A stretch of 29,734 nt of DNA from a virus. Of this stretch, positions 970 through 25,529 are shown piece after piece. The position numbers and the translations under genes were made by a program. The DNA lies in the IMG/VR virus record IMGVR_UViG_3300031857_000980, positions 1 through 29,734 of that record; one strand, 5' to 3'. The stretch's first letter is position 1; each line of letters begins with the position of its first letter. The notes under the pieces are model-generated. The model saw only the letters and a program-made list of their open reading frames with translations. It was not told where the DNA came from and ran no database searches.

Positions 970-1536
970 TTAGCTGGATCTATAAGTAGGAACCGGAGGA
1001 AAAGGCGGTAAATTTATATTTACCAAAGTTGGTATTGAAGGCCATATAATTGTAGTAGGATCAGATGTATTTGGCAAATCTCTTAATTGTTGTCTAAATG
1101 TAGCAAATTCTGATTTTGCTTGAGTTGAAAATGGTACATCTGATAGTTGTGTAAAATCTGTTAAAGATAGATATCTATCTCTAATCATTCTTATTTGACT
1201 TCTTAAAACCTCAACTCTTTCAGATAATTCTTGAGCCGTCAAAGTTTTTATAGTATATGTAACATTACACGTTTTACTTGTTGCATCCAAAGAATTATTT
1301 GGAATCAAACTTTGACTTATATTATAATCTGGTTTTGTATCAAAATTTGCTTTCCAAAAACCTAAATTGGAATTACCTTGCCAGGTTAGATCGGATAATA
1401 ATTCAGGTGAACTTTCTTCCAAAACATTAAATCCACTAGTGGGGCCAAAGTTATCAGGCAATTGCATTGGTCCTTGAATTATAAAATAATTTTGATTGTC
1501 AATCTTGTTAACTAAAAAATATTGATTTGTACTCAT
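970..1536 (-). CDS. Phage tail assembly chaperone-like protein
   Basis: A 188-residue protein. The N-terminal part (FIIQGPMQLPDNF near 18-30) resembles the small beta domain that often precedes this family's helical part. Residues about 101-126 are a charged helix (ELSERVEVLRSQIRMIRD), followed by the signature RDRYLSLTDFTQLSDVP (119-135), FRQQLRDLP (147-155) and WPSIP (165-169). This order, RD..L..TD..QL.D.P then FR..LRD.P then WP..P, is typical of the phage tail assembly chaperone family Phage_tail_APC (PF16778, from memory). Family members lie beside tail-fibre genes and are thought to help fibre or tail assembly. The start is three bases after the stop of the lectin-like gene (TAATTTATG), pointing to translational coupling. 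The proline-rich end PPFPPVPTY is unremarkable. The assignment is by motif reading and not by a profile search. Confidence 0.78.
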   Translation of the reverse strand: MSTNQYFLVNKIDNQNYFIIQGPMQLPDNFGPTSGFNVLEESSPELLSDLTWQGNSNLGFWKANFDTKPDYNISQSLIPNNSLDATSKTCNVTYTIKTLTAQELSERVEVLRSQIRMIRDRYLSLTDFTQLSDVPFSTQAKSEFATFRQQLRDLPNTSDPTTIIWPSIPTLVNINLPPFPPVPTYRSS

Positions 1537-15155: not shown

Positions 15156-18100
15156 TTATTTATTTACTTTTGACTTTAAATCATCAATTTCTATTTGTTG
15201 TTGTTTGACTATAGCACTCAATTCTTGTACTGCTTTAATCAAAGGTACCATCAAATTACCTGGGGTAGCTTCCAATTTATTAGGATTAGACTCATATACC
15301 AGATTCAAATATGTAGCATTTTCAGTTTCTTGTAGCTCTTTTAGTTCTTGAGCTATAAAACCAATTTGTGTTGCATCATCTTTTTTGCTACCGTCTCTGT
15401 TGCCATTAGGATACCACTCACGTTTATCCCACTTAAATGTCACAGGACGTAGTTTTTCAACAAATGATAAGCCTACTTGTACGTTATTTATATCAGTTTT
15501 ATCTCTAAAGTCTGATAGAGCGGTTATGGTGGTTACTTGACAACGTAGTGTAGCTACGGACGAATTACCCAGTGTTATTTCATTTGTAGCTGTAGCAGAT
15601 GAAGCGGCTGCTAAATAACCTATTATAGTTAGATTTGTACCAGTTGTTACAGCTGTACCCGCACCATATCCAACTGCGGTATTATTTGTACCACTTGTAG
15701 TACCTACCAATGCTCTAGCACCTACAGCAACATTAAATACGCCTGTATTATTAGCATATAATGCTCTGTAACCTATCGCAACACTTCCACTTGGTACTGC
15801 CGTAAATGGAAATGCTAATGGACCTTGTAAAGTATCAGTTCCTACCGCTACGTTTCTGTTGCCATGTAAGACGTAAATCATCGATGCGTGTCCTACAGCA
15901 GTATTATCTATCGCGCTTACTGTACCTCTCAATACACCATATCCGAAAGCAGAATTGTTGTTTCCGGTCGTATTTAAAGATAGAGCGTTAACACCTATTC
16001 CAAGGTTATTATTACCCGTGGTATTACTACCCAAAGAATTTCTGCCAAGAGCAACGTTTCCTTGACCAATTGTGTTGGTTTGTAAAGCATAAGTTCCGAA
16101 TGCAGTGTTCCAAATACCCGTTGTATTGCTTGACATTGCTTTATAACCAAATGCGCTATTATCTCTACCGGTAGTGTTTGTACTTAAAGCGTTGTAACCA
16201 AATGCACTATTAGTAACACCAACAGTATTAACTGCCAAAGCTCTGTAACCAAACGCACTATTACCTTTACCAGTAGTATTGCTATTTAATGCCTGATAAC
16301 CTACAGCTACATTTGATAATGGTTTTGTGTTAGATACATTTTTATTACCTCTACCCACTGTAATTTTATCGATAATTACATTGTAGTTACTAAATGCTTC
16401 GATTACAGGCAAACCTGTAATATCATTTACACTAAACAAACTACCGCTTAGATTGTCTGTTACTTCAAATAGTGTACCATTACCACCATCAACTTTGAAT
16501 ACACTTAGATTGCTACCACTAGCATAACTATGTAGTTTACTAATAGGAGTTAGTGTACCTACACCTACGTTACCACTACTATTGACCCACATTCTCTTGT
16601 TACCTTGACCATCGGCAAGTATGATAGTACTGCTTAGTGAACTTGATAAACCCGTAACATTAGCGCCAACTATTGTGTTGTAATTACCTGTGGTAATTCC
16701 TCTGCCAGCAGCAAAACCTATTGCGGTATTTAAAGTTCCTGTGGTTACTTCGTATAATGCTTGAGCGCCAAACGCACTATTACTATTTGTGGTATTAAAA
16801 TATAGTGCTTGGTCTCCCATAGCTGTATTATTTGTACCAACTTCATTACTATATAATGAATATAAACCAAATCCATTGTTTCTACTACCAGATGTATTTG
16901 ATCTTAAAGCTAAACGTCCTACAGCAGCATTATAATTACCAGTTGTATTTAAACTTAAAGCGCCTTGACCAACACCTACATTACAAAGACCAATTGTATT
17001 ATTTTGTAAAGCGGTATCACCTATAGCTACATTTAAAGCTCCTGTTGTATTATTAAGTAATGCTTTATAACCAAAAGAGCTATTTGCATAACCAAATGTA
17101 TTTGTATATAAAGATAAATATCCAAAACTGCTATTTCTATATCCTGTTGTGTTACTTTGTAGAGAACTACGACCAACTGCTGTATTATAATTACCTGTAG
17201 TATTATAATACATAGCGTTATAACCAATTGCTACGTTAGCAATACCAATAGTGTTATATCTTAAAGCATAATTACCAAACGCACTATTATTATAACCAGA
17301 AGTATTGCTTCTCAAACTAAATCTTCCAAATGCACTATTAGCTCCACCAGTGGTGTTACTTTGTAATGTATATGCACCAAATGCACTATTGCAATTACCG
17401 GTGGTATTATTTGCCATTGCCGATCTACCAATTGATGTATTGTCTTGACCAGCTGTATTTGATAATAAACTGTTAACACCGATAGATACATTATTTACGC
17501 CGGTAGTATTATTTGCTAATGATTGATGACCAATTGCTACGTTATTTTGTCCACTAGTATTGGATCCCATAGCACTTGTACCTATTGATACGTTCTGAAT
17601 ACCCGTAGTATTTAGAATTAAAGAGTCTCTACCTATAGCAATATTATTATTACCACCCGTGTTTGCATTTAATGTATTAACACCAATTGCTACGTTATTT
17701 CCACCTGTTGTATTATTATACAAACTACCATAACCTACACCCGTATTATTAATACCAGTTGTATTTGTATATAGTGAAGCGTAACCAATAGCTGTATTAT
17801 TTACGCCCGTTGTATTGCTGAATAATGTATATGTACCAAATGAACTATTAGCAGTACCTATCGTATTATTTTGTGAAGAACCTCTACCAACAGCCGTATT
17901 TAATCCACCTGTAGTATTATTTAACAAAGCATTGACACCTACTCCAGTATTGCTGTTACCTATTGTATTCTTTTGTAATGCATTCAAACCAAATGCACTA
18001 TTATTAAGGCCGACAGTATTTAATAATAGTGTATAATTACCAAATGCACTATTTCCTGTTCCACTAATGTTTGCATTCAATGCTTTATAACCAAATGCAC

Positions 18101-21100
18101 TATTATTAGCCCCAGTAGTATTAGTATATAAACTATAAGAACCAAAGGCAGAATTATTAACGCCTGTGGTATTAAATCTCAAAGCTTTAAATCCAAAAGC
18201 GCTATTATTATTTGTTGTATTACTAGTTAGAGCATAATATCCAAATGCGCTATTATAACTTCCAACACTGCTATATAAAGCATCAACACCGAATGCGCAA
18301 TTATAATTACCAACAATATTACTTAACAATGTTCCCCAGCCAAATCCAGTATTGCTTCTGCCAATTGTATTGTTCAGTAATGATTTATAACCGAATGCGC
18401 TATTAAAATTACCGGTTGTATTTGATTTTAAAGACTCTAGTCCAAATGCACTATTGGCTGTACCAGTTGTATTGTTTCGTAATGCTTGATCACCAAATGC
18501 GCTATTATTATTTGTTGTATTTTTAAACAACGCATAACGTCCAAAAGCGCTATTTGTATTACCAACGTCATTATACATTAATGCTGCATGACCAAATGCG
18601 CTATTATTAACACCCGTAGTATTAGCTAATAAAGCATTAAAACCAAATGCATTGTTATAACCACCTGTGGTATTTGATTTTAAAGCTTGATAACCAAATG
18701 CACTGTTATTTATACCAATTGTATTTGCTCTTAGAGATCCATATCCAAATGCACTATTGTTTTTACCCGTGGTATTAAATCTTAAAGAATTCATACCTAC
18801 GGCTGTATTGTATTTACCAAATGTATTGCTAGTTAAAGAAACATGTCCAACTGCTGTATTAAAACTACCTGTAGTATTTGAAGCAAGAGCAGACACACCG
18901 ACAGCAGTATTTAGTGCGCCTATCGTATTAGCATTTAAAGCTTTATAACCAAAAGCACTATTATTATCGGTGGTATTACTATATAAAGCGTATATTCCAA
19001 AAGCACTGTTATTACTTCCTGCACTATTTGTAGCAAGAGCTGCTCTACCAACTGCTGTATTTCTATTACCAGTTGTATTTCCAGCAAGTGCGCTAACACC
19101 CATAGCAACATTATAATTACCAAATGTATTAACACCCATTGCATTATAACCAACTGCGGTATTATAAGATCCACTATTATTGGCGGTTAATGATATATAA
19201 CCAACAGCAACGTTGTATTGACCTGTTGTATTAGCAAACATCGATTTATAACCAAATGCGCTGTTATTACTTACAGTATTATTTACTAATGTTTGAAAAC
19301 CAACGGCGGTATTATTATTTCCTGCAATATTAGATACTAACGATCCGTGGCCGACTGCTACATTATTTGAACCTGTTGTATTTAGTGCCAAACTATTATA
19401 ACCAAAAGCAGTATTACTATTACCTGTTGTATTTCCTAATAATGATTGATAACCAAATGCACTATTTTTATTACCAGATGTATTATTATATAATGCTGCA
19501 TATCCTACAGCAACGTTATATGCACCGGTTTTATTAGCAAATAATGATCTATATCCAACCGCTGTATTTGCATTTGTTGTATTATAGTATAATGATTGAA
19601 ATCCTATTGCAGTATTATTACTAGCATTTACACTATATAATAATGCTTGTTGACCAAATGCACTATTTCTTGTACCAACTGTATTTGAAACCAGCGCATT
19701 GTAACCAAATGCACTATTAGAACTACCAGTAGTATTTGATAGTAAAGCTTCTGTTCCTACAGCTACATTTTGTGTACCAATTGTATTAGAATATAAACCT
19801 CTATATCCTACAGCAGTATTACCATTTGTTGTATTGAATCTTAAAGATTGATTTCCTATAGCAGTATTGTTACTGGCTGTAGCACTATAAAATAATGTTT
19901 CAAAACCTATAGCAACATTACCCACGCCACTTATATTATAAAGTAAAGCATTGTGACCAAATGCACTATTATTTTTACCCGTGGTATTTCCGTATAGTGA
20001 ATTATAACCAACAGCAACGTTGTTATAACCAAATGTGTTGGATCTTAATGCTCTATTACCAATAGCTACGTTATACGTACCACTTGTATTTGCTCTCAAA
20101 GCATAATAACCAAATGCATTATTATCACTACCTGTAGTATTTACGCTTAAAGAACTATAACCAAATGCATTATTTCTAACACCAATTGTATTAGCAGCTA
20201 AAGCATAGTTACCCATTGCAACGTTATAAATACCCGTGGTATTCGCTTGCATTGTTTTGAAACCGAATGCATTGTTACTGATTGCTAAATTAGCAAACAA
20301 TGCTCTATAACCAAATGCACTATTATATGAACCGGTAGTATTATTATTTAATGCACTATATCCGAATGCACTGTTGTTACTGCCGGTAGTATTAGAATAT
20401 AGAGATGAACGACCAACTGTTGTATTATATTTGCCAAATGTGTTACTATACAATGAAGACTGACCTACAGCTGTATTATAACTACCCGTGGTATTACTAT
20501 TCAATGATTTGAAACCGAATGCACTATTTTCATTTCCAATAGTGTTACTATACAATGCTCTATAACCAAATGCACTGTTTTGAGTACCCGTGGTATTAGC
20601 TTTTGCAGCTTGAAAGCCAAATGCACTATTATTGTTTGTAGTATTAGCTTCCAAAGCAGATGTACCAACAGCTGTATTTTGATAACCATTTACGTTGTTA
20701 TACAAACAGCTTACCCCCATAGCAACATTGTAATTACCACCGGCATTTGTATACAAAGCATTAACACCTATAGCAACGTTTTCTACACCAACTGTATTAG
20801 AAAACATCGAATACATACCAAATGCACTATTATATCTACCACTGACATTTGTAAACATCGATCTATGACCAAAAGCACTATTAAAGCTACCAGTTGTATT
20901 AGCATGTAGTGCAGTTTCGCCTACAGCTGTATTTTTAGTGCCGATTGTATTTGTGTACAATGTTTTATAACCAAATGCACTGTTGCTATCAGTTGTATTA
21001 CTATACAACGATTGATAACCAACTGTTGTATTATTATTTCCGACAGCATTAAATCTTAATGATTGTTGACCAAATGCACTATTATTAACACCACTTGTAT

Positions 21101-24100
21101 TATTTGCTAACGTACTAGAACCAACAGCAGTATTATTTATACCCGTTGTATTTTCTTGCAATGCACTTCGACCAAAAGCACTATTATTTACGCCTATAGT
21201 ATTTCTTAATAATGAATAAAAACCAAAAGCGCTATTACTACCACCCGTAGTATTATAAAACAACGATCCATGTCCCATTGCAACGTTATTGGTACCTATT
21301 GTATTACTATACAAAGCTTGCATGCCTACAGCGGTATTACTTACACCTGTTGTATTTGCTTGCAATGTTTGTTGACCTACAGCAGTATTATAATTACCAA
21401 TTGTGTTACTTAGTAAACTATTCAAACCAACAGCAGTATTACTTGTACCTGTTGTATTAGTAAATAAAGATTTATAACCAAATGCACTATTATTATCAGC
21501 TTTATTATTATAAAGTGCAAATTGACCGACCGCTGTATTATTACTACCTACAATATTTAGTCTCAAAGCATTGGTACCAACAGCTACGTTTCTATTACCG
21601 GTTGTATTTGATAGTAAAGTTCCTGCACCAAATCCAGCATTGTATCTACCAAATGTATTGCTAGCTAAACTATACCATCCAAATGCAGCGTTAGCATTGC
21701 CTGTTGTATTGTTTGTTCCGGCTTTATATCCAAATGCACTATTACTAACACCACTTGTATTATTAGTTAAAGCCCAACCACCAACAGCTGTATTGTATGA
21801 ACCAGTTGTATTTGCAAATAAAGTTCTATATCCGAAAGCATTATTATGAGTTCCGATTGTATTACCAGTCAATGAATTTACGCCAAAACCACTATTAAAT
21901 GAACCAGTTGTATTAGATCTTAAATTATTATAACCAACAGATGTATTATTAGCGCCAGTTGTATTACTCAATAATGAAAAATATCCGAACGCACTATTAT
22001 ATGAAGCAATAGTATTAGCTTTCAAAGCTTGATAACCAACTGCTGTGTTGTTTATACCTGTTGTATTATTTTGTAATGCTTGATAACCAAATGCACTATT
22101 ATTATTCGTTGTATTATAGAATAGAGCCAAATGTCCTACTGCTGTATTATTGTTACCTATGAGATTTGTATACAATGTTTGTGTACCCATTGCAACATTT
22201 GCTGCGCCGCTTGTATTACTTATTAATGCTTGAAAACCTACAGCTACGTTACTAGCACCTGTTTTATTGCTTTCCAATGCACTACGACCAACGGCTACTA
22301 TATTATTTGCAGTATTATTGTATAACGCTCTCCAACCTATACCAACTGTATCATTCGCATTACCAACATTACATACTTGATAACCAAAATAAGAATTTCT
22401 TTCACCACTTGTATTTGAATTACCAGATTGAAAACCTACAGCGGTATTATTATAACCTACTGTATTATTATACATTGCTTGATAACCGATTGCAGTATTA
22501 TTTACGCCGACTGTATTACTAAAAAGACTATATGCACCAACTGCTACATTAGTTGAACCAGTAGTATTATATCTTAATGAAAAAAGTCCTACAGCTGTAT
22601 TATTGCTACCGATTGTATTTACAGGTAGTGATTGATAACCAAATGCTGTATTATTGTTGCCTGTTGTATTTGTGTATAATGCGGCGAATCCTACAGCGGT
22701 ATTATTTGAACCTATTGTATTAAGAAACAAAGCTGTTCTACCAACAGCCGTATTATATGAACCTACAGTATTTGTATATAAAGATTGAAAGCCAACTGCT
22801 GTATTTTCAAAACCCGTTGTATTGCTTGATAAAGAATTTGCACCTACAGCAACATTTCTAGTACCTGTTGTATTAACTAACAAAGCTCTATAACCAAAAG
22901 CACTGTTATTACTTGTTATATTAGCTTCTAAAGCTTGAAAACCAACGGCAGTATTTGAACTACCTATCGTATTAACTGATAATGCACTACGACCAAGTGC
23001 AGTATTATAAAGACCAGTTGTATTAGAGTTAAGCGCATATGTACCAAATGCTGTATTATTACTTCCGGTTGTATTAGCGCTTAATGAACCAAGTCCTACA
23101 GCTGTATTTAGTGATCCTATTGTATTAGCACCCAATGCACTGTTACCCATTGCAACGTTTGAATAACCAGTCGTATTGTTTCTTAGTGCGTTATAACCAA
23201 ATGCGTTATTAGAATTAGTTGTATTACTATACAACGCGCCATAACCAAATGCGTTATTGTATGATCCAACTACATTACTAGCCAAAGCAACTCTACCTAT
23301 TGCAGTATTTCTTATACCTGTGGTATTCGATGCTAAAGCATAACTACCAAATGCACTGTTCAATGTTCCGGTAGTATTTGATTGCATCGATCTAAAACCG
23401 AATGACGAATTATCTCCACCAATTGTATTATTTCTCAGAGCATATAAACCAAAAGCGCTATTATTATTACCAGTTATATTTGATCTAAGAGCGTTGCTGC
23501 CAAATGCACTATTGCTTTGACCTATAGTATTATATCTTAAAGAATATCTGCCAAATGCGCTATTATTATCACCCGTTGTATTACTTATTAGTGAATTATG
23601 ACCGACAGCTGTATTACTGCTTCCTATCGTATTACTTTGTAAAGCACCAACACCTATCGCAACATTTCTTGTACCAGTCGTATTGGCCCTTAAAGCTTTA
23701 TATCCAAAAGCATTATTATTGCTTGTTAAATTATTATATAATGATTCAAATCCTACAGCTGTATTATTATTTCCGCTAACATTTAAGAATAAAGACGTAT
23801 CACCTATACCTACATTTTTTGATCCTATGGTATTAAAAATTAATGCATTACAACCAAATGCAGTATTACTATTGCCAGATGAAACCGCTGCTAACGCATA
23901 ACTACCAAATCCACTATTTCGATCACCTGACAAATTGTTTTGTAATGCTCCATTACCAAATGCGCTATTTTGTGATCCATTACTATTAAAACGTAAGGCA
24001 TTATATCCAAATGCGTTATTTTGGCGACCAGTTGAATTGAATTGTAAAGCATTTACTCCAAAAGCACTATTATTATAACCATATGTATTAGATCTTAACG

Positions 24101-25529
24101 ATGAAAATCCAAATGCACTATTATTGTATCCAGTTACATTAGAATATAAAGATCTATAACCAAATGCGCTATTGTTATTTGTGGTATTAACTCTTAAAGC
24201 TTCAAATCCAAACGCACTATTATTTGAGCCAGTTTGATTAGCGTACAACGCATATCTACCAAACGCAGAATTATTATTTCCTACATTATTAGCATACAAA
24301 GCACTGCGGCCAACTGCTGTATTATATGATCCCGTTGTATTCGCTAACAAAGCAAAATAACCTACCGCGGTATTTTCTATACCAATTGTATTAAATTGCA
24401 ATGCTGAATAACCAAATGCACTATTATTTACTCCTGTGGTATTTGCATTCAATGCACTGTTACCTACAACCGTATTGCTTACAATGTTACCAACACCACG
24501 ACCAACCGTTACAGAGTTAACGTTTATACTATGAGTAATATCAGTCGTGTTACTATCACCAATAGTTGTACTGCTAGTGAATTTAACAATAGTATTGGTA
24601 GTACCACTTACAGCTACACTTGTACCCGATGTGCCACTGCTACCACCAGCACCACTTACTCCACTTGTACCGCTACTTCCACTTGTACCGCTACTTCCAC
24701 TTGTACCGCTACTTCCACTTGTACCGCTACTTCCACTTGTACCGCTACTTCCACTTGTACCGCTACTTCCACTTGTACCGCTACTTCCACTTGAAGCGGA
24801 CGATCCACTTGTACCGCTACTTCCACTTGAAGCAGAAGATCCACTTGTACCACTGCTTCCACTTGTACCGCTACTTCCACTTGAAGCGGACGATCCACTT
24901 GTACCGCTACTTCCACTTGAAGCAGAAGATCCACTTGTACCACTGCTTCCACTTGAACCGGAGGTACCACTTTCTCCACTACTTCCACTTGTACCTGACG
25001 TACCAGAACTTCCCGATGATCCATTTACACCACTTGTTCCACTACTGCCGGAACTTCCACTACTACCATCCACACCACTAGTACCAGACGATCCACTACT
25101 TCCACTTGAAGCACTACTACCACTCGTACCGCTACTACCAGTACTACCACTGCTACCGTCTACGCCACTTGTTCCACTGCTACCACTACTTCCACTACTA
25201 CCATCCACACCACTAGTACCAGATGAACCATTTACGCCGCTGGTTCCACTGCTACCACTACTGCCATCCGAGCCACTTGTGCCACTACTACCACTTGATC
25301 CAGTATTACCGCTGGTACCACTACTGCCTGTTTGACCACTGCTACCAGCGGTACCGCTACTGCCTGAGGAACCAGAACCACCTCCACCACCGTTCATTGC
25401 ATAACTTGCGGTTATGGCGTAACTGGCGGTAACATTTAATGTACCTGTACTAGGTTTTAGACTGCCTGTTAGGTGAAAATCACCTATTTGATCTGTTAAT
25501 CCTTTTAAAGTGGGCGTAAATATTTTCAT
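15156..25529 (-). CDS. Giant tail fibre protein (3457 aa): collagen-like rod, about 154-coil beta-roll, S74 chaperone domain
   Basis: Very long fibre protein. Residues 1-46 form a small N-terminal segment (MKIFTPTLKG..., TASYAITASYA) that resembles the starts of the genes at 15116 and 722, which supports this ATG. A poly-Gly hinge leads into 85 Gly-x-y triplets (residues 50-304), then a VSGTTNTIVKFT linker, then about 154 tandem 17-residue coils of the form NSAFGYxALxxNTTGxx, similar to the left-handed beta-roll of YadA-type adhesin heads. A single NVGVGT module and connector follow, then about fifteen more coils and the S74 domain. Ser3339 and Lys3344 in SDFRDK match the Ser/Lys pair used for S74 self-cleavage. 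No signal peptide or membrane segment is visible, which argues against a bacterial autotransporter. The reading frame is intact over 10.4 kb despite extreme repetition. Its role is most likely a long receptor-reaching fibre; the receptor is unknown. Confidence 0.93.
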   Translation of the reverse strand: MKIFTPTLKGLTDQIGDFHLTGSLKPSTGTLNVTASYAITASYAMNGGGGGSGSSGSSGTAGSSGQTGSSGTSGNTGSSGSSGTSGSDGSSGSSGTSGVNGSSGTSGVDGSSGSSGSSGTSGVDGSSGSTGSSGTSGSSASSGSSGSSGTSGVDGSSGSSGSSGTSGVNGSSGSSGTSGTSGSSGESGTSGSSGSSGTSGSSASSGSSGTSGSSASSGSSGTSGSSGTSGSSASSGSSGTSGSSASSGSSGTSGSSGTSGSSGTSGSSGTSGSSGTSGSSGTSGSSGTSGVSGAGGSSGTSGTSVAVSGTTNTIVKFTSSTTIGDSNTTDITHSINVNSVTVGRGVGNIVSNTVVGNSALNANTTGVNNSAFGYSALQFNTIGIENTAVGYFALLANTTGSYNTAVGRSALYANNVGNNNSAFGRYALYANQTGSNNSAFGFEALRVNTTNNNSAFGYRSLYSNVTGYNNSAFGFSSLRSNTYGYNNSAFGVNALQFNSTGRQNNAFGYNALRFNSNGSQNSAFGNGALQNNLSGDRNSGFGSYALAAVSSGNSNTAFGCNALIFNTIGSKNVGIGDTSLFLNVSGNNNTAVGFESLYNNLTSNNNAFGYKALRANTTGTRNVAIGVGALQSNTIGSSNTAVGHNSLISNTTGDNNSAFGRYSLRYNTIGQSNSAFGSNALRSNITGNNNSAFGLYALRNNTIGGDNSSFGFRSMQSNTTGTLNSAFGSYALASNTTGIRNTAIGRVALASNVVGSYNNAFGYGALYSNTTNSNNAFGYNALRNNTTGYSNVAMGNSALGANTIGSLNTAVGLGSLSANTTGSNNTAFGTYALNSNTTGLYNTALGRSALSVNTIGSSNTAVGFQALEANITSNNSAFGYRALLVNTTGTRNVAVGANSLSSNTTGFENTAVGFQSLYTNTVGSYNTAVGRTALFLNTIGSNNTAVGFAALYTNTTGNNNTAFGYQSLPVNTIGSNNTAVGLFSLRYNTTGSTNVAVGAYSLFSNTVGVNNTAIGYQAMYNNTVGYNNTAVGFQSGNSNTSGERNSYFGYQVCNVGNANDTVGIGWRALYNNTANNIVAVGRSALESNKTGASNVAVGFQALISNTSGAANVAMGTQTLYTNLIGNNNTAVGHLALFYNTTNNNSAFGYQALQNNTTGINNTAVGYQALKANTIASYNSAFGYFSLLSNTTGANNTSVGYNNLRSNTTGSFNSGFGVNSLTGNTIGTHNNAFGYRTLFANTTGSYNTAVGGWALTNNTSGVSNSAFGYKAGTNNTTGNANAAFGWYSLASNTFGRYNAGFGAGTLLSNTTGNRNVAVGTNALRLNIVGSNNTAVGQFALYNNKADNNSAFGYKSLFTNTTGTSNTAVGLNSLLSNTIGNYNTAVGQQTLQANTTGVSNTAVGMQALYSNTIGTNNVAMGHGSLFYNTTGGSNSAFGFYSLLRNTIGVNNSAFGRSALQENTTGINNTAVGSSTLANNTSGVNNSAFGQQSLRFNAVGNNNTTVGYQSLYSNTTDSNSAFGYKTLYTNTIGTKNTAVGETALHANTTGSFNSAFGHRSMFTNVSGRYNSAFGMYSMFSNTVGVENVAIGVNALYTNAGGNYNVAMGVSCLYNNVNGYQNTAVGTSALEANTTNNNSAFGFQAAKANTTGTQNSAFGYRALYSNTIGNENSAFGFKSLNSNTTGSYNTAVGQSSLYSNTFGKYNTTVGRSSLYSNTTGSNNSAFGYSALNNNTTGSYNSAFGYRALFANLAISNNAFGFKTMQANTTGIYNVAMGNYALAANTIGVRNNAFGYSSLSVNTTGSDNNAFGYYALRANTSGTYNVAIGNRALRSNTFGYNNVAVGYNSLYGNTTGKNNSAFGHNALLYNISGVGNVAIGFETLFYSATASNNTAIGNQSLRFNTTNGNTAVGYRGLYSNTIGTQNVAVGTEALLSNTTGSSNSAFGYNALVSNTVGTRNSAFGQQALLYSVNASNNTAIGFQSLYYNTTNANTAVGYRSLFANKTGAYNVAVGYAALYNNTSGNKNSAFGYQSLLGNTTGNSNTAFGYNSLALNTTGSNNVAVGHGSLVSNIAGNNNTAVGFQTLVNNTVSNNSAFGYKSMFANTTGQYNVAVGYISLTANNSGSYNTAVGYNAMGVNTFGNYNVAMGVSALAGNTTGNRNTAVGRAALATNSAGSNNSAFGIYALYSNTTDNNSAFGYKALNANTIGALNTAVGVSALASNTTGSFNTAVGHVSLTSNTFGKYNTAVGMNSLRFNTTGKNNSAFGYGSLRANTIGINNSAFGYQALKSNTTGGYNNAFGFNALLANTTGVNNSAFGHAALMYNDVGNTNSAFGRYALFKNTTNNNSAFGDQALRNNTTGTANSAFGLESLKSNTTGNFNSAFGYKSLLNNTIGRSNTGFGWGTLLSNIVGNYNCAFGVDALYSSVGSYNSAFGYYALTSNTTNNNSAFGFKALRFNTTGVNNSAFGSYSLYTNTTGANNSAFGYKALNANISGTGNSAFGNYTLLLNTVGLNNSAFGLNALQKNTIGNSNTGVGVNALLNNTTGGLNTAVGRGSSQNNTIGTANSSFGTYTLFSNTTGVNNTAIGYASLYTNTTGINNTGVGYGSLYNNTTGGNNVAIGVNTLNANTGGNNNIAIGRDSLILNTTGIQNVSIGTSAMGSNTSGQNNVAIGHQSLANNTTGVNNVSIGVNSLLSNTAGQDNTSIGRSAMANNTTGNCNSAFGAYTLQSNTTGGANSAFGRFSLRSNTSGYNNSAFGNYALRYNTIGIANVAIGYNAMYYNTTGNYNTAVGRSSLQSNTTGYRNSSFGYLSLYTNTFGYANSSFGYKALLNNTTGALNVAIGDTALQNNTIGLCNVGVGQGALSLNTTGNYNAAVGRLALRSNTSGSRNNGFGLYSLYSNEVGTNNTAMGDQALYFNTTNSNSAFGAQALYEVTTGTLNTAIGFAAGRGITTGNYNTIVGANVTGLSSSLSSTIILADGQGNKRMWVNSSGNVGVGTLTPISKLHSYASGSNLSVFKVDGGNGTLFEVTDNLSGSLFSVNDITGLPVIEAFSNYNVIIDKITVGRGNKNVSNTKPLSNVAVGYQALNSNTTGKGNSAFGYRALAVNTVGVTNSAFGYNALSTNTTGRDNSAFGYKAMSSNTTGIWNTAFGTYALQTNTIGQGNVALGRNSLGSNTTGNNNLGIGVNALSLNTTGNNNSAFGYGVLRGTVSAIDNTAVGHASMIYVLHGNRNVAVGTDTLQGPLAFPFTAVPSGSVAIGYRALYANNTGVFNVAVGARALVGTTSGTNNTAVGYGAGTAVTTGTNLTIIGYLAAASSATATNEITLGNSSVATLRCQVTTITALSDFRDKTDINNVQVGLSFVEKLRPVTFKWDKREWYPNGNRDGSKKDDATQIGFIAQELKELQETENATYLNLVYESNPNKLEATPGNLMVPLIKAVQELSAIVKQQQIEIDDLKSKVNK
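15159..15515 (-). other. S74 intramolecular chaperone domain of the giant fibre
   Basis: Residues 3339-3457 of the 3457-residue fibre. Motifs seen in order: LSDFRDKTDI, LRPVTFKWD, IGFIAQEL, LNLVYESNPNKLEATPG, MVPLIKAVQEL, then a helical tail. In the endosialidase tailspike family (peptidase S74) this domain helps the trimer fold and is released by self-cleavage at the Ser of S-D-x-R-x-K; Ser codon 15513-15515 and Lys codon 15498-15500 keep that spacing. Confidence 0.92.
15550..16313 (-). repeat. Second beta-roll array of the giant fibre (about 15 coils)
   Basis: 17-residue coils as in the main array, from SNVAVGYQALNSNTTG to NEITLGNSSVATLRC, running straight into the S74 domain. One coil near 15790-15830 is expanded by the insertion LQGPLAFPFTAVPSGS, the only prolines in either beta-roll run besides a single SLPVN coil. 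Confidence 0.88.
16660..24476 (-). repeat. Main beta-roll array: about 154 tandem 51-bp/17-residue repeats
   Basis: Hand parsing gives about 154 coils of the form N-[ST]-A-[FV]-G-x-x-[AS]-L-x-x-N-T-[TI]-G-x-x. The pattern fits a left-handed parallel beta-roll like YadA heads, whose repeats are usually a little shorter (about 14-16 residues). Most coils are exactly 17 residues. A class of 16-residue coils, where T-T-G-x-x becomes T-T-x-x (for example NTTNN), recurs through the array. Repeats are diverged at DNA level and are not recent perfect copies. Confidence 0.93.
24661..24786 (-). repeat. Perfect 18-bp tandem repeat, 7 copies
   Basis: Seven identical copies of CCACTTGTACCGCTACTT (plus strand), each encoding GTSGSS on the minus strand. 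Perfect identity points to recent slippage or unequal exchange. Confidence 0.95.
24791..24957 (-). repeat. 90-bp tandem duplication in the collagen-like block
   Basis: The segment beginning TTGAAGCGGACGATCC at 24791 recurs at 24881 with the same following sequence for about 77 bases; period 90 bp, that is 30 residues, so the frame and the Gly phase are kept. Confidence 0.88.

Follow-up and report, generated by a model that had tools for sequence, protein, structure and literature searches.

Shortened 16-residue coils in a 155-coil viral fibre array: a probable local turn variant with a replicated three-coil context

The window analysed here is the whole of one linear virus record of 29,734 bases (IMG/VR record IMGVR_UViG_3300031857_000980, positions 1-29734). 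Nearly all of it is taken up by minus-strand fibre genes, which together encode more than 9,000 amino acids and combine collagen-like, coil-array and S74 parts (Table 1). Relatives found in bacterial genomes are mostly from Bacteroidota. The unit that recurs through the 2,407-aa neighbour of the fibre gene studied here is the V-G-x-x-x-P-x-x-x-L capping-loop motif of S74/MAT fibres (PMC10769870), present in many copies.

From the N-terminus on, the fibre protein consists of a collagen-like Gly-x-x region, an array of 155 coils, a short linker, a second, smaller array and an S74 chaperone; it is an S74-chaperone fibre with a collagen-like stretch. The C-terminal Peptidase_S74 domain scores above the curated Pfam cut-off (41.6 bits versus 22, and 49.1 bits in a second search), and the linker VGVGTLTPISKL again fits the capping-loop motif of S74/MAT fibres (motif from PMC10769870). 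Profiles of PHROG 23837, 6002 and 4636 match along the fibre array with 1,371-1,660 bits in 24-37 stretches, and many stretches of the protein, whose role is probably receptor binding, hit PHROG models of structural and tail-spike proteins of phages. Sequence searches of solved structures with the coil array or the S74 domain returned no matches.

Table 1. Features of the window, with positions on the 29,734-base record
Feature	Position	Strand	Basis or remark
Tail-assembly-chaperone-like gene	970-1536		PF16778
Neighbour gene, 2,407 aa	2317-9540	minus	many N-V-G-I-G-T-T-S-P-x-x-K-L units
Fibre gene, 3,457 aa	15156-25529	minus	ORF calls, Pfam, PHROG structural/tail families
Peptidase_S74 intramolecular chaperone	15330-15515	minus	PF13884, 1.6e-10
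SDxxxK motif (SDFRDK, aa 3339)	15498-15515	minus	motif definition from PMC10769870
Second array, about 12-14 coils of the 17-residue type	15687-16319	minus	shorter and less regular
Linker VGVGTLTPISKL after main array	16533-16568	minus	motif match
Main array, 155 coils, last one or two degenerate	16635-24482	minus	segmentation
Span holding all 19 short coils	16788-24227	minus	segmentation
Short coils 6, 15, 25, 31	24180-24227, 23724-23771, 23217-23264, 22914-22961	minus	
Short coils 42, 43	22356-22403, 22308-22355	minus	both irregular
Short coils 47, 59, 69, 76	22107-22154, 21498-21545, 20991-21038, 20637-20684	minus	
Short coils 83, 92, 97, 103	20283-20330, 19827-19874, 19575-19622, 19272-19319	minus	
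Short coils 109, 118	18969-19016, 18513-18560	minus	
Short coil 123	18261-18308	minus	irregular turn
Short coils 124, 152	18213-18260, 16788-16835	minus	
Regular run, 27 coils (125-151), no short coil	16836-18212	minus	segmentation
Coils 99-114 (short coils 103, 109), AlphaFold2 model	18714-19523	minus	pLDDT 87.9, pTM 0.84
Coils 131-146 (no short coil), AlphaFold2 model	17091-17906	minus	pLDDT 89.9, pTM 0.86
Collagen-like G-x-x region (GSSGTSG type), aa 53-302	24624-25373	minus	Pfam PF01391, 2.4e-26, and motif positions
Adjoining fibre gene, 5'-open, 1,383 aa	25582-29733	minus	short array of 17-residue coils and S74 domain

Delimited objectively with a profile and dynamic programming, the coils of the main array follow each other in 135 steps of 17 and 19 steps of 16 residues. 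The original prediction had counted about 154 coils at 16660-24476; the count is right, given the degenerate end of the array, and the coordinates hold once the minus strand is stated, the array running from 24482 to 16635. The 16 short coils named there are all recovered by the segmentation, as is a long regular run of about 27 coils, and coils 42, 43 and 123 had been missed. The coil consensus is x-x-N-[ST]-A-[FV]-G-Y-x-A-L-x-x-N-T-T-G, with Gly7 conserved in 155 of 155 coils, Asn3 in 153 and Asn14 in 147. Since these conserved positions use mixed codons (for Gly7, GGT 109, GGA 33 and GGC 12 times), the array is old and held by selection, and with a longest exact nucleotide repeat of only 25 nt a misassembly is unlikely. 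From the rise of 4.8 Å per layer published for left-handed parallel beta-rolls (PMC9543794), the rod would by arithmetic be about 74 nm long.

What distinguishes the short coils from their neighbours? The residue that they lack is lost from the N-T-T-G-x turn, which typically becomes N-T-T-(N/D/S). The two successive irregular 16-residue coils 42 and 43, NSYFGYQVCNVGNANDTVGIG, break the pattern and have a cysteine inside; they may represent a scar or a separate insertion. With coils 42, 43 and 123 set aside, the short coils are spaced more evenly over the 155 coils than expected at random (CV 0.58 versus 0.86, P=0.036), and more so over the first 125 coils, a cut chosen post hoc (CV 0.34, P about 1e-4); with all 19 short coils included, the evenness has P=0.17. 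A rule that merely forbids a second short coil within 3 coils accounts for the evenness over the whole array (P=0.55; P=0.04 for the first 125 coils only), and close-neighbour exclusion likewise explains the spacing in the arrays of two uncultured viral contigs, L104 and L118. In the pooled viral arrays, including a held-out set, short coils are depleted at a distance of 1-2 coils from each other. A fixed periodicity was rejected once this exclusion was allowed for, and no period is common to the arrays. In sum, short coils avoid each other's proximity; beyond this exclusion their spacing is about random.

A far stronger regularity is found in the coils that flank a short one. In the window, the coil before a short coil has threonine at position 15 in 2 of 15 cases, as against 105 of 121 other coils (p=1e-8), the threonine being replaced by V, I, L, Q, E, D or A. 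The same depletion is seen in 53 further arrays, a set of which part had been looked at before the test (17/44 versus 1030/1265, p=1e-9), and in a held-out set of 84 new loci (L097-L180) that was fetched afterwards and to which the new test was confined (62/106 versus 1901/2163, p=2e-13). Permutation within each array leaves P<0.0002 in each of the three sets; when the two longest arrays are dropped from the held-out set, P is 0.0012 there. The effect is strongest where arrays have many short coils: counted separately, 16 of the 30 held-out arrays fall short of their own Thr15 background and 14 exceed it, the latter probably being mostly arrays with few short coils. On the other side, the coil that follows a short one in the window has Phe6 in 14 of 16 cases (76/155 overall) and Tyr or Phe at position 8 also in 14 of 16 (65/155 overall), so that the NSAFGYxAL type proposed for this coil is right for the window. 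In the held-out arrays, Asn2 (p=4e-10) and Tyr/Phe8 (p=2e-12) are favoured in the following coil; in the first set of relatives, Tyr/Phe8 was not significant (19/50, P=0.16). Phe6, Ser4 and Lys/Arg/Gln9 were not replicated as a general motif in the held-out set and are limited to the lineage of the window.

The neighbourhood effect extends to coils of regular length. Across 4,206 coils, neighbouring coils covary at matching positions (12-12, 4-4, 6-6 and 14-14), as expected of stacked layers, and position 11 also covaries with position 5 of the neighbouring coil. Even when only 17-residue coils are considered, position 15 of one coil covaries with position 16 of the next (z=13.9). Furthermore, turns with a hydrophobic residue at position 16 (N-T-[IVF]-G) avoid adjacent coils in the array of the window and in those of L002-L180, with 8 adjacencies where 35 are expected in the first set, and 17 where 36 are expected in the held-out set. 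A strict alternation of NTTG and NTIG/NTVG turns was considered and rejected, the data showing this avoidance instead. As the turns of successive coils covary even in the absence of short coils, the packing of stacked turns is the best explanation: each turn appears to rest on that of the following coil, and one that has been shortened to need a different partner. Judged by sequence, the short coils resemble a local packing motif more than they do duplicates of a longer unit, and we infer packing as the cause of the three-coil context. In the open-access literature we found no paper stating such a stacking rule, and our literature search yielded no dedicated description of the coil repeat itself.

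Structure prediction fits such a layered arrangement. AlphaFold2 models of two segments, one with two short coils and one with none (Table 1), are confident and agree on one solenoid, in which each coil contributes two short strands; both were run as monomers, with a wide spread among the five models. The best PDB match of the model with short coils is the left-handed beta-roll head of BpaC (7o23), a weak match (E=0.015, prob 0.96), and the matches of the other model are weaker still, the best being the bacterial adhesin CbpF (E=0.044, prob 0.28). Some of the PDB matches are left-handed beta-helix enzymes. The predicted fold of the array is likely a left-handed beta-roll. Searched against a library of viral folds, model m2e8e97fe8d66 has close matches in Bodo saltans virus, Gaeavirus, Tupanvirus, a chlorovirus and a virophage protein, which indicates that viruses of eukaryotes have the coil array as well.

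Taken together, we favour, at a probability of about 0.68, a beta-solenoid fibre whose 16-residue coils represent local variation in the outer turn, set by the packing of stacked turns. The gene would give rise to an extended virion fibre that most likely trimerises via its C-terminal S74 chaperone, which would then cut itself off. Most of the length of the fibre would be a beta-roll-like solenoid with one 17-residue coil per layer, and a short coil would be a variant of the outer turn in which N-T-T-G-x is shortened to N-T-T-N/D/S. Because each turn would stack on the next, this shortening would favour a residue other than threonine at position 15 of the preceding coil and, in long arrays, also Asn2 and Tyr/Phe8 in the following one. 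Short coils would be found so seldom close together because they are tolerated only where the three-coil context fits. Coils would come and go one at a time or a few together, and would afterwards diverge within the limits of a strong constraint on N3, A5, G7, L11 and N14.

Could the short coils in addition serve a purpose in the fibre? The idea that they are a structural register mark, as the original prediction had it, is supported in a local form, namely as the context of preceding coil, short coil and following coil, which is replicated in other viral arrays. More tentatively, with the odds against it, this conserved three-coil module of an altered turn, a shortened turn and an Asn2/aromatic-8 coil may be a functional mark along long viral solenoid rods, with nearest-neighbour rules deciding which turns stack; if so, it could for instance bend the rod, reset its twist or offer a site to a ligand. 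We consider it rather unlikely that the short coils were themselves selected for altering the fibre locally in its twist, bend or surface, for instance as a marker of ligand sites or for fitting the length of the fibre to the virion. Their presence in most long viral arrays, where they make up about 8% of the coils, and their conserved three-coil context would agree with such a role, as would the fairly even spacings in a few arrays (13, 11, 14 and 10 coils in L007; 16, 16 and 15 between the canonical short coils of L038). However, the latter two arrays were picked out after the fact, some arrays have no short coils at all, the array of the window includes a run of 27 coils without any, a common period is lacking, and the solenoid predicted by AlphaFold2 is the same with and without short coils.

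Alternatively, an ancestral unit of about 5-12 coils with one short coil could have been duplicated repeatedly and then have diverged past recognition. Precedents for this scenario exist: the roll of BpaC grew by expansion of a three-layer motif (PMC9543794), and block amplification does occur elsewhere among arrays of the 17-residue coil type, as in a Candidatus Babeliaceae MAG (L094), where a 14-coil super-repeat in about 2.5 copies has its short coils at fixed offsets and coil identity reaches 58% at lag 14 (mean 35%). In the main array of the window, the coil identity at lags 1-40 exceeds its background by at most about 2 percentage points, with small excesses at lag 5 (z=3.4) and lag 32 (z=3.3), and coils 91-95 and 96-100 are alike by eye. 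Against this, no pair of 3-, 5- or 8-coil blocks rises beyond the 95% level of coil-shuffled arrays. The agreement of synonymous codons is 0.97-1.03 at lags 1-12 and 0.97 among the coils after short ones, compared to 1.36 in L112, where neighbouring coils were apparently duplicated recently; this measure is weak for old duplications, as the super-repeat of L094 scores only 1.11. Near the short coils, strong resemblance is limited to the short coil itself and its successor and fades by offset +2 to +3, where a copied block should reach further, and the variable spacing over the whole array fits exclusion and chance. Two relatives, L002 and L003, align over 15 coils and differ by the gain or loss of one whole coil; one short coil is kept in place between them, and other coils that are short in one relative have regular length in its counterpart. 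No ortholog-type alignment of the main array with L002, L003 or L104 scored above shuffles. Lag identity, block matches, synonymous codons and exact repeats, none of which reveals a near-identical multi-layer motif of the BpaC type, therefore exclude block duplication as a recent process in this array, and the proposal of a higher-order unit amplified as a block is left unsupported. Block copying here is either absent or very old, and as the origin of the short coils we regard it as improbable. A mere neutral tolerance of single-residue turn deletions, with the context as a statistical by-product, is very improbable in view of the strong and replicated context effect and the depletion of close pairs, even if rare loop indels are found at the equivalent place in bacterial left-handed beta-rolls (PMC9543794).

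The reading of the short coils as outer-turn variants in a stack of layers can be set beside known beta-rolls. As in the array of the window, each layer in the left-handed parallel beta-roll heads of the trimeric autotransporter adhesins YadA, BpaC (7o23) and CbpF is a single small coil, and both have an invariant glycine per layer (G at position 8 in the bacterial beta-rolls, PMC9543794; G7 here). Loop indels at the layer-to-layer junction of the bacterial heads (PMC9543794) resemble the short turns. The layers of the bacterial left-handed beta-rolls, however, comprise 14 residues (PMC9543794) rather than 17 or 16, and the motif GxNSVAIGAxSxAx of YadA-like heads is absent from the window array, where the core is N-[ST]-A-[FV]-G. 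Pfam YadA_head has no match in the array, and one sub-threshold match in the neighbouring gene. Whereas YadA-like adhesins have a membrane anchor, the window fibre has an S74 chaperone in its place. Thus, the array would work like a beta-roll yet falls outside the YadA_head class, and belongs to the widespread S74 fibres of viruses. With the MAT fibres of Bdellovibrio (PMC10769870) it shares the S74 domain with its SDxxxK motif and the V-G-x-x-x-P-x-x-x-L capping-loop motif, but the published MAT tips are intertwined trimeric beta-prisms and beta-helices (PMC10769870), unlike the 17-residue coil array.

As a fibre, it adds one more example to a type that is very common among viruses; of wider interest are the replicated stacking rules, a sequence signature of how neighbouring solenoid layers would accommodate a change of one residue in a turn. 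If confirmed by structure, they could help to register arrays, to predict surfaces and to guide the design of long solenoid rods. Phages of many kinds have the 17-residue coil repeat, relatives being found in cyanophages, pelagiphages, roseophages and Bacillus phages, and predicted structures related to the array occur in giant viruses and chloroviruses. The viral fibres of PHROG 23837, 6002 and 4636 share the repeat motif and the predicted fold with the window fibre, and several of them have an S74 end; examples are the 'putative T4-like proximal tail fiber' of Prochlorococcus phage P-SSM2, SPO1 gp2.52, Methylophilales phage Venkman gp55 and Pelagibacter phage HTVC112P gp48. The window fibre has many more coils than the fibre genes of sequenced phages with which it was compared, the gene of HTVC112P gp48 measuring 2,271 bp in total. 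It is not the longest known array, being exceeded by those of L104 (203 coils, at a locus with a 3,703-aa gene) and L118 (198 coils, in an open frame of 4,849 aa). Finally, a chromosomal-looking gene of Flavobacterium agri (L086:6575-10612) encodes 1,346 residues with a signal-like start, 61 coils and an S74-like end; it is a probable secreted protein of Flavobacterium and suggests that this type of fibre is also present on a bacterial surface.
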